Positions 19,414 through 27,288 of a stretch of DNA of 36,652 nt are shown piece after piece. Position 1 is the first letter of the stretch. Each line of letters begins with the position of its first letter. This DNA is from an uncultured Alphaproteobacteria bacterium (GTDB taxonomy: Bacteria > Pseudomonadota > Alphaproteobacteria > Bin65): positions 1 to 36,652 of the forward strand of contig CAMYMQ010000346.1 in NCBI GenBank assembly GCA_947259335.1, read 5' to 3'. Under the pieces are notes generated by a model. The model saw only the letters and a list, made by a program, of their open reading frames with translations, was not told where the DNA came from and ran no database searches. Both the position numbers and the translations under genes were made by a program.

Positions 19414-19911
19414 ATGAGCCTTCGGCTTGCATCGACGGCCGTCTTCGCGGCGCTTGTAACCGCGGCGAGCGCCGTTCCCGGGGGCGCGGCCACGAAGACC
19501 CGGGGAGAGCGGCTGGCAGAGGCTCTGCCCGCGCCGTTGTCCGGTTGGACCGCCAGGGAGCGGATCGAGGACAACACCAAGACCAAACAGGTCCGGGTTC
19601 AGCGGGTCTACTTCAAGAGCGAGAAGGACGAGACCTCCGAGATCAGCATCGTTCTGCGTTCGGAGACGAAGGCGACCCTCAAGAAGCGGCGCGACACCTT
19701 CCTCGACGAGAAGGTGGTCAAGGCAAAGAAGGGCGAATTCCGCACGATCGCCGGTCAGCGCTTCTCGATCCTGCAGATCAAGGGCGAGTACACCGCGATG
19801 ACCGTGGTCAAGGATCGCTACACGGTCCTGTTCTTCGGGACCAAGGACAAATCGATCCTCTACGCCTACATCATCACCACCGATTTCAAGCGCATTGAGG
19901 GCATCCGCTGA
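19414..19911 (+). CDS. Secreted protein of unknown function
   Basis: 165 residues. A signal peptide (SLRLASTAVFAALVTAASAVPGGAA) is followed by a basic, beta-rich domain with ALPAPLSGWTARE near its start and alternating strands such as EISIVL, RFSILQIKGEY and YTVLFFG. I do not recognise a named family. The ATG at 19414 follows GGAAGGA and is fixed by the signal peptide. It is divergent from purB. The (A/F)P-x-P-x-GWT opening resembles that of the exported protein at 22595, so the two may be distant relatives. Confidence 0.75.
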   Translation: MSLRLASTAVFAALVTAASAVPGGAATKTRGERLAEALPAPLSGWTARERIEDNTKTKQVRVQRVYFKSEKDETSEISIVLRSETKATLKKRRDTFLDEKVVKAKKGEFRTIAGQRFSILQIKGEYTAMTVVKDRYTVLFFGTKDKSILYAYIITTDFKRIEGIR

Positions 19912-20048: not shown

Positions 20049-20096
20049 TGTGGATAAGATGTGGATCGTTCTGAATAACTGAATTTAATATCCACA
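20049..20096. repeat. Cluster of DnaA-box-like sequences
   Basis: TGTGGATAA at 20049-20057 is the exact reverse complement of the DnaA box TTATCCACA. TGTGGATCG at 20060-20068 differs at two positions, and ATATCCACA on the plus strand at 20088-20096 differs at one. The outer two also form a perfect 9-bp inverted repeat (20048-20056 and 20089-20097) around AT-rich DNA. Confidence 0.5.
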
Positions 20097-20159
20097 AGAA
20101 ATCCCTTGTAATTGCTGGATTTCTTTTGCCCCACTTTGAAGTGTTTGGCAGTATTCATG

Positions 20160-20330
20160 GGCACATCGGGCGTTCTTCGGAGCAAGCGGTGTGTGGCCGA
20201 GGGAGCCTCCGGGCTGCCGCGGCCGAGCCGGGGAAGCCGCAAGGTGGAGCTGGCTCAAGGAGAGGCGTCAGGGTGCTCTTCGGAGCTATGCAAGGACACC
20301 GCGTCTACGCACCTGGCGCCTCTTTCTTTT
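20160..20330 (+). ncRNA. Candidate structured non-coding RNA
   Basis: GC-rich, non-coding stretch ending in a strong terminator with no gene upstream that needs it (the nearest plus-strand gene ends 350 bases earlier). GCGGTGT (20186-20192) can pair with ACACCGC (20296-20302), and GCCT (20206-20209 region) with AGGC in the 5' arm of the terminator stem, so alternative folds exist. It does not match 6S, tmRNA, RNase P or SRP RNA as I know them. The 5' end is a guess; no confident promoter was found. Confidence 0.3.
20263..20330 (+). terminator. Intrinsic terminator of the candidate small RNA
   Basis: AGGCGTCAGGGTG (20263-20275) pairs with CACCTGGCGCCT (20310-20321) through 12 base pairs with one bulge and one G-U, enclosing a 34-base loop with its own CTC-TTCG-GAG hairpin. 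CTTTCTTTT (20322-20330) follows immediately. Confidence 0.6.
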
Positions 20331-20556
20331 GCGCATTTTCAGGCGCAAAACGAAACGGGCCCGGCGCGTATCGGTAGCCGCTAAAACCACCATCACGCCG
20401 AGCCCGCACACGTCAGGTTATGCAATACCGCGTCAGTGCACCTGTGCGCGGCGAACCTATGTGCGTGCCCGAATCCTGTCAACCAAATTTTGTGGATGCG
20501 TTGCTCGAACCGTCTAAATATGGTGACGGTTTGTGCGGCAACTTGTGGTGTCTGTG

Positions 20557-21225
20557 ATGGCCGACCGGCGGGTGGTGCTTTCCTGGAGCAGCGGCAAGGA
20601 CAGCGCCTGGGCCCTGAAGACCTTGCGGGAAGCGCCCGGGATCGAGGTCGTTGCGCTGCTGACGACGGTCGCCGAACAGGCCGGCCGGGTGCCGATGCAT
20701 CATGTCGCCGAGCACTTCCTCGACCGTCAGGTCGCCGCGGCCGGATTGCCGCTGATCCGGATTCCGCTGCCGAGCCCGTGCCCCAACGACGTCTATGAAG
20801 CGCGCATGCGCGCCGGGCTCGAAGCAATAAAGGCAACGGGCGCGCGGGAAATCGCTTTCGGAGACCTGTTCCTGGAGGACATCCGGGAGTATCGCGAACG
20901 GATGCTCGACGGCTCCGGCGTCAGCCCGCTATTCCCGCTCTGGAAGCGGGACACGGCCGAGCTTGCCCGCGAAATGGTCGCGGGAGGCTTGGAGGCGATC
21001 GTCACCGCCGTCGACACCTCACTCCTCGATGAAGCCTTCGTCGGCCGGCGGTTCGACGATGCCTTGTTGGACGCGCTGCCCGACGGCGTCGATCCCTGCG
21101 CCGAGAACGGCGAGTTCCACAGCTTCGCCTGCGCAGGGCCGATGTTCGACGCACCGCTGCGGGTGCGCGCCGGGGCGAAGGGCCGTTGGGAGCGAATCGT
21201 CTACGTCGATCTGGAAAACGCCTAG
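20557..21225 (+). CDS. Dph6-like ATP pyrophosphatase (diphthine-ammonia-ligase related)
   Basis: 222 residues. The PP-loop SWSSGKDSAW near residue 10 marks the adenine-nucleotide alpha-hydrolase fold, and the central GAREIAFGDLFLEDIREYRE and C-terminal NGEFHSFACAGPMF motifs are those of the Dph6/MJ0570 group. Eukaryotic Dph6 amidates diphthine on EF-2; bacteria lack diphthamide, so the bacterial substrate is unknown. The ATG at 20557 is used although no strong Shine-Dalgarno is visible; a GTG at 20548 region could also serve. Its stop overlaps that of the converging thiolase gene in CTAG (21222-21225). Confidence 0.82.
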   Translation: MADRRVVLSWSSGKDSAWALKTLREAPGIEVVALLTTVAEQAGRVPMHHVAEHFLDRQVAAAGLPLIRIPLPSPCPNDVYEARMRAGLEAIKATGAREIAFGDLFLEDIREYRERMLDGSGVSPLFPLWKRDTAELAREMVAGGLEAIVTAVDTSLLDEAFVGRRFDDALLDALPDGVDPCAENGEFHSFACAGPMFDAPLRVRAGAKGRWERIVYVDLENA

Positions 21226-26938: not shown

Positions 26939-27288
26939 CGCCGTCGCCCGCCGGCCCGGCCGCCATCGGGATGACCTGACTTACATCCACTCGGATGCGG
27001 AAGCCGCAGACGCATTGTTCACAATCGCGGTGGATAATCATGTGGATAGAGTGGAAGTCTGCGGTTGTCACAAAGGGTTAACATTGTGCCTGAACTTTGG
27101 GCAATCCATATAACATATTGAAAATAAACAATTTAAAGACCTAGGCCGTGGGCGTCCCGAGTGCGAGTTCGATGGCGTCGAAAATGTGGCAGGCGCGGTC
27201 TTTGCCGAAACAATAGGCCGTTCGGCGGCGCTGGACCGACAAGAAAACTACGATCCATACGCCGCCGAATTCTATTCAATCCATATCG
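26939..27288. other. 350-base gap between convergent genes
   Basis: Holds an 8-bp inverted repeat CCGCAGAC/GTCTGCGG around two DnaA-like boxes (27029-27049), then a very AT-rich tract at 27085-27140. Its 3' part, on the minus strand, has a short open frame (27141-27275) with coding-like codon choice but no good start. No gene starts from this AT-rich tract on the plus strand, which is odd for promoter-like DNA. Confidence 0.5.
27029..27049 (-). repeat. Two DnaA-box-like sequences in tandem
   Basis: GGTGGATAA (27029-27037) and TGTGGATAG (27041-27049) are reverse complements of TTATCCACC and CTATCCACA, each one base from the DnaA box TTATCCACA. They are 12 bp apart in the same orientation, similar to the 11-bp spacing of the first two boxes at 20049. 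Confidence 0.45.

Follow-up and report, generated by a model that had tools for sequence, protein, structure and literature searches.

Antisense RNAs that are linked to the locus of a longer structured RNA and pair with it are known from type I toxin-antitoxin systems and from RNAI/RNAII of ColE1, and protein titration by GGA-rich hairpin arrays of variable number is known from CsrB and RsmZ; the best-known binder of GGA-rich hairpin RNAs is CsrA. Among the alphaproteobacterial systems, reports on Rhodobacter sphaeroides describe a 72-nt RNA, StsR, driven by RpoHI/RpoHII, which pairs with the longer, terminator-ended UpsM (the mraZ/dcw leader), whereupon the fold changes and RNase E gains access (PMC8307010, PMC5089854). 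In Caulobacter, one sRNA sequesters another in the CrfA-SisA system (seed UUUCCUCCCU, alphaR8 family), with SisA-D scattered (PMC12559287). Also in Caulobacter, CcnA is described as a CtrA-linked ncRNA located among DnaA boxes at the origin, the CCCC loop of which acts on ctrA/gcrA (PMC8959179).

As judged from comparative analysis, the locus described here belongs to a known kind, the antisense or sponge RNA pair: conserved complementarity was found between two separately encoded candidate RNAs, named A and B, in a 36,652-nt stretch of alphaproteobacterial DNA (hereafter the window). The most similar mechanism is that of StsR-UpsM, where an sRNA targets a longer terminator-ended RNA in the same bacterial class; however, StsR is RpoH-driven (PMC8307010), whereas B has a sigma-70-like promoter (TTGA-N17-TA) and lies beside A. 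UpsM itself was rejected by position: in 14 of 14 genomes, the MraZ hits are separated from A by distances of 125 kb (G412) to megabases or lie on different contigs. CrfA-SisA shares with A-B the sequestration of one sRNA by another in an alphaproteobacterium, but the SisA-D genes are scattered and no convergent covarying partner gene is described in the part of the report at hand (PMC12559287). CcnA resembles A as an alphaproteobacterial ncRNA among DnaA boxes, but it lies at the origin and has no antisense partner in the available description (PMC8959179). CcnA was rejected by position, since the GC skew of Shimia puts A off the origin (clear in one genome, noisy in a second). The variable-number GGA-rich hairpin array of A recalls CsrB and RsmZ; however, CsrA (PF02599) was found in 0 of the 13 genomes searched (control positive in 3 of 14 known genomes), and a CsrB-like sponge of CsrA was rejected for this reason. 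Unlike type I toxin-antitoxin systems and ColE1 RNAI/RNAII, the A-B locus had no recognised coding frame, and one Ruegeria A-B region gave 0 matches in 72,556 plasmid records, so that a plasmid element was rejected for that region.

Rfam 15 gave no match at or above the gathering threshold at A or B in the window and 10 named loci, and nothing credible by E-value in 20 class loci; the best weak match at A was ctRNA_p42d (21.4 bits vs 50 needed). At L031:7436-7558 (minus strand), between the A/B pair and rpsB and outside both A and B, a match to the rpsB sRNA (RF01815) was observed at 40.5 bits, against a threshold of 40. No description of the pair was found in the full text of openly licensed papers, and its motif strings had 0 matches in 5.39 million papers; since the search covered such text only, absence from print is not established. 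A single-copy, independently moving pair with covarying complementarity, shared by Rhodobacterales and Rhodospirillales and with no match in Rfam, would be a widespread regulatory device of abundant marine and soil bacteria missed by annotation.

Two convergent candidate RNA genes

The preliminary description of this DNA had placed a 645-base gap here, which is right, since 19911 is the last position of the upstream plus-strand gene and the start of the Dph6-like gene (Pfam Diphthami_syn_2) lies near 20533-20557. It erred in finding no upstream gene that a terminator could serve: a plus-strand gene, secreted-protein-like by eye, occupies approximately 19415-19911, about 250 nt 5' of A. In the wider neighbourhood, purB was close by in 8 of 8 loci taken from family relatives with the core, and rpsB was present downstream in L031 and L038 and was not within the window. 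The features of the locus are as follows.

20049-20057, minus strand: exact DnaA box TTATCCACA, upstream of A
20088-20096, plus strand: DnaA-box-like sequence ATATCCACA, one mismatch
20126-20154, plus strand: proposed A promoter (-35 TTGCCC 20126-20131, 17 nt, -10 CAGTAT 20149-20154)
20160-20331, plus strand: candidate RNA A, structured body and conserved 3' domain, predicted ends
20225-20256, plus strand: body hairpin module of A (outer stem, purine internal loop GGAA/GGAG, short stem, GCAA loop)
20260-20324, plus strand: conserved 3' domain of A (P1 20260-20272/20312-20324, P2 UUCG hairpin 20275-20286, P3 20289-20311)
20299-20315, plus strand: B-pairing blocks of A (CCGCGUC 20299-20305, GCACCUG 20309-20315)
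20323-20331, plus strand: U-rich tail of the A terminator, TTTCTTTTG
20345-20446, minus strand: candidate sRNA B, convergent on A (approximately 20446-20345, predicted ends; predicted 5' start (G)CACAGGUGC)
20357-20405, minus strand: B terminator, stem 20405-20394 with 20368-20357 and tail GTTTCGTTTTG, read by eye
20428-20444, minus strand: 5' blocks of B complementary to A (CAGGUGC 20444-20438, GACGCGG 20434-20428)
20454-20482, minus strand: B promoter (-35 TTGACA 20482-20477, 17 nt, -10 TAGGTT 20459-20454, 7 nt to CACAGG)

The gap likely holds an unannotated RNA gene, A, of ~170 nt in the window and ~180 to ~1200 nt in relatives. The preliminary description had proposed a possible unannotated small RNA that ends in a terminator and might switch between folds. 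The former part stood, with conservation, structure and covarying stems all pointing to such an RNA. The terminator is present, its stem of 11-13 bp (20260-20272 paired to 20312-20324) leading into TTTCTTTT, and the GC-rich stretch 20160-20350 folds strongly (-103 kcal/mol, z -5.0 vs dinucleotide shuffles, 0 of 200 as stable), the z value falling to only -2.6 with other ends (20130-20332). A simple terminator scan of the window found 0 terminators; it missed this one because the stem closes a three-way junction of ~39 nt and is not a simple hairpin. Compensatory changes were seen in some P1/P2 pairs. The alignment of relatives contains 26 consensus pairs, 3 of them with compensatory changes. 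Of 113 loci, 99 have the P2 hairpin, in which 61 distinct stem pairs occur.

The switch between folds, on the other hand, was rejected. GCGGTGT (20186-20192) and ACACCGC (20296-20302) are both present and complementary, but energy and conservation are both against their pairing, which costs 19.7 kcal/mol when forced (-73.9 vs -93.6), has a probability of ~2e-13 for a pair within it, and would involve an ACA before CCGC that is unconserved among relatives. A second hairpin proposed next to the terminator (20328-20351, TTTTGCGC/GCGCAAAA) does exist, but no counterpart was seen in the alignment of relatives.

The body of A is built of short hairpins, capped by UUCG or GNRA and with GGAA/GGA in their internal loops (modules read by eye). 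The module is single in the window and tandemly repeated in other species (L202 being a tandem array), and module number differs greatly between species. This variable array of small hairpins points to an RNA-binding partner other than CsrA, since CsrA was found in none of the 13 genomes searched. In L202, a tandem 18-nt repeat (unit approximately GGGCCCAAAATGGAAACC, on the strand opposite A) was also observed ~860-930 nt upstream of the core.

The more important part of the locus was missed in the preliminary description, namely the partner on the opposite strand, the covariation of the complementary segments, the DnaA boxes and the occurrence in many genomes. The motif CCGCGTC-N3-GCACCTG occurs twice, as a direct repeat on the plus strand; read on the minus strand, the second copy comes directly after a TTGACA-N17-TAnnnT promoter and has a terminator downstream. 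The candidate sRNA encoded there, B, is ~100 nt long in the window and about 75-80 nt in genus g2. Its promoter-seed arrangement recurs (84 loci listed), the exact seed being present in 84 of 113 loci. Relative to the seed, a TTG near -35 and a TA near -12 are kept across loci. A promoter-anchored search with relaxed letters found B at 110 of 121 cores, including two picks judged false (L175 and L032) that were dropped from the 110 pairs and the true B of which was seen separately; no B was found by this search at 11 of the 121 cores, some of them at contig ends. L080, L155 and L194 were excluded from the box and seed counts as duplicates of family loci, as were also L197-L199 in the promoter-anchored search. 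A B-like GGTGCATGGATGCGG sequence is present in L094. In G008 and G009 A and B are ~2 and 0.9 kb apart, respectively, and both genes are retained. The B motif was also sought elsewhere in 23 genomes, with 5 matches: 3 are, by their coordinates, the A locus itself in antisense, and the others are in G435 and G425.

Complementarity and distribution of the pair

The predicted pairing of A with B has strong comparative support. The first 45 nt of B are complementary to the A 3' domain in blocks (CUGAC, UGCAU, GACGCGG and CAGGUGC), with noncomplementary spacers between them, and in the marine clade (e.g. L130) GUCAGGCGUCA and CGGGCUCCGCGUCC of A are complementary to B as well. In 74 of 108 cases, the A base that precedes CCGCGUC can pair with the B base that follows GACGCGG (A-U 46, U-A 17, C-G 7, U-G 4, non-pairing 34). 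After removal of duplicate combinations, the 51 distinct flank combinations were paired at a frequency of 0.725 vs 0.448 in permutations (p printed as 0.0000, 10,000 permutations), a test that ignores the tree and in which kinship still inflates the result. Under the same limitation, the mean duplex energy of 19 representatives was -53.7 kcal/mol for cognate and -48.1 kcal/mol for swapped partners (permutation p 5e-5); in L103, L119, L125 and L203 the cognate B ranked only 10th-12th of 19 by duplex energy.

The conservation of A was observed at several taxonomic levels. BLAST of a 321-base query against 61 genomes detected the core (within 20260-20328) in 8 of 10 family relatives, with 81-86% identity and E values of 5e-8 to 7e-13; in G002 and G005, which belong to genus g3 of the family, the core was absent by BLAST and by covariance model. 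Within the order, the covariance model found the 3' domain in 9 of 11 genomes, and a broader one, built from 37 sequences, found it in 40 of 385 class genomes (E 1e-3, strict filters). A 19-base pattern used to scan named genomes matched at least 119 stretches. Among the first 80 of these, the upstream arm was also present in 72, and 8 were left out with the arm missing within 75 nt (L150 has the arm with one mismatch). The 72 named loci come mostly from Rhodobacterales and Rhodospirillales (most are Rhodobacteraceae/Roseobacter relatives, plus Kiloniellaceae and Rhodospirillaceae MAGs). A single strong copy of A was found in every one of 25 named genomes, and 3 of these also gave weak matches (E 0.0015-0.01); L221, which is without a box, and L289 resemble chance terminators. 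The genes beside A/B differ between groups, and therefore the pair appears to be an independent unit. A single match to the A-core pattern, which may be due to chance, was observed at L291:5079-5102, on the viral contig IMGVR_UViG_3300006872_000016.

A different arrangement, named type 2, was observed in L287, L288, L290 and L282-L286, each a long, structured, GC-rich stretch preceded by a cluster of DnaA boxes. These loci share the P1 stem (GGCGUCAGG/CCUGACGCC) with A and have a different P3. In G313, G416 and G017 a type-2 locus is present besides a type-1 locus. At distant type-2 loci P1 and the boxes are kept and B was not recognised; a k-mer search for B partners was noisy (13 loci, mostly distant type-2).

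DnaA boxes, proposed mechanism and rival readings

DnaA boxes are enriched on the upstream side of A. Within 1 kb (about 105 kb in total on each side), TTWTNCACA was counted 85 times upstream (64 of 109 loci) vs 10 times downstream (10 of 109 loci), with a shuffled mean of 2.75; strict boxes were absent upstream in 45 of the 109 loci. When one mismatch was allowed, the density of boxes in the upstream 600 nt of 72 named loci was 15.7 times that elsewhere in these loci (2.18 vs 0.139 per kb), and with a looser box set 24 of 25 class-wide loci had them upstream and 1 of 25 downstream. The spacing of the proposed A promoter is identical in L031, L035 and L038, and a related TTG-N20-AACAGT form occurs in Ruegeria. 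At 37 of 113 loci a spaced promoter falls within the 160 nt that follow the last box, vs 0.004 expected per 160 nt; this count is descriptive only, because some of these loci had served to define the pattern. A sigma-70 scan of the window gave no promoter, and the -35 of A is weak there. The position of the boxes suggests that A is probably under DnaA control, a link between replication control and RNA regulation that would be testable in culturable Ruegeria or Shimia.

Altogether, we consider it rather likely that the gap encodes two convergent ncRNAs forming an autonomous antisense or sponge pair, with A probably under DnaA control. A would be transcribed as an independent unit, with DnaA boxes and a promoter 5', a body of hairpin modules and a 3' domain that doubles as terminator. 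Pairing would most likely start where CCGCG in the P3 loop of A meets GACGCGG of B, and would then extend via both arms, by strand exchange through P3 and P1, leaving out the P2 hairpin of A. This would open the 3' hairpin of A and may expose it to processing or decay by RNase E or III; hence, each RNA would silence the other to a degree set by how much of the two is present. Bound at the A promoter, DnaA would link the level of A to the replication state. A more specific version, in which A is a DnaA-governed regulatory RNA that titrates a protein through its GGAA-type hairpin array and is reset by B pairing with the terminator domain, is tentative and rather doubtful. If true, A/B would do on a chromosome what antisense control of copy number does on plasmids, with replication state coupled to an RNA circuit, and the type-2 loci, which share the P1 stem and have DnaA boxes of their own, would be its paralogues.

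Other readings of the locus were weighed against that of an autonomous pair. The plus-strand gene that ends ~250 nt upstream, a homologue of which is also upstream of A in L038, could make A its 3' UTR and terminator, at most a 3'UTR-derived sRNA; this is unlikely, as that gene is separated from A by DnaA boxes and a spaced promoter, and A with its boxes adjoins unrelated genes in other groups. It is somewhat more improbable that the CCGCGTC-N3-GCACCTG repeat is bound as DNA by a protein or recombinase and that the RNAs are complementary only as a consequence of the direct repeat. The motifs do form such a repeat on the plus strand, and its shared ancestry could mimic part of the flank complementarity; however, one copy is preceded by a promoter at fixed spacing, the other is surrounded by terminator structure, and the flanks vary between clades yet stay complementary between copies.

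Adjacent genes, a short antisense RNA with a strong promoter, block complementarity and a long structured partner would also fit a type I toxin-antitoxin system with A as toxin mRNA and B as antitoxin RNA. Nevertheless, the A body is a hairpin array of ~180 to ~1200 nt, and in the Ruegeria alignment, which has many indels, no conserved reading frame was seen by eye, which leaves this reading very improbable. Hardly any probability is likewise given to the locus being the chromosomal replication origin, with the conserved sequences as origin DNA and the RNAs incidental, even though a DnaA-box cluster lies beside AT-rich DNA and one strong copy per genome was the rule. In Shimia biformata the skew changes sign at about 0.4 and 2.2 Mb, and the locus, at 1.667 Mb, is deep within the arm of positive skew. 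Neighbour genes vary, and some genomes have two P1-stem loci, each with boxes, which is also evidence against an origin. The window itself shows no skew flip, and the sampling of OX638333.1 was noisy. In Shimia, oriC was rejected because the GC-skew minimum is not at the locus, again with one genome clear and the second noisy.

DnaA-box-like sites were also observed away from A. Two of them (TTATCCACC and CTATCCACA), 12 nt apart, lie at 27029-27049 of the window in a low-GC stretch. In Shimia, an exact DnaA box is present at L245:15025-15033, ~420 nt upstream of mraZ; the A core is absent there, and the box lies upstream of where a UpsM-type dcw leader would start.
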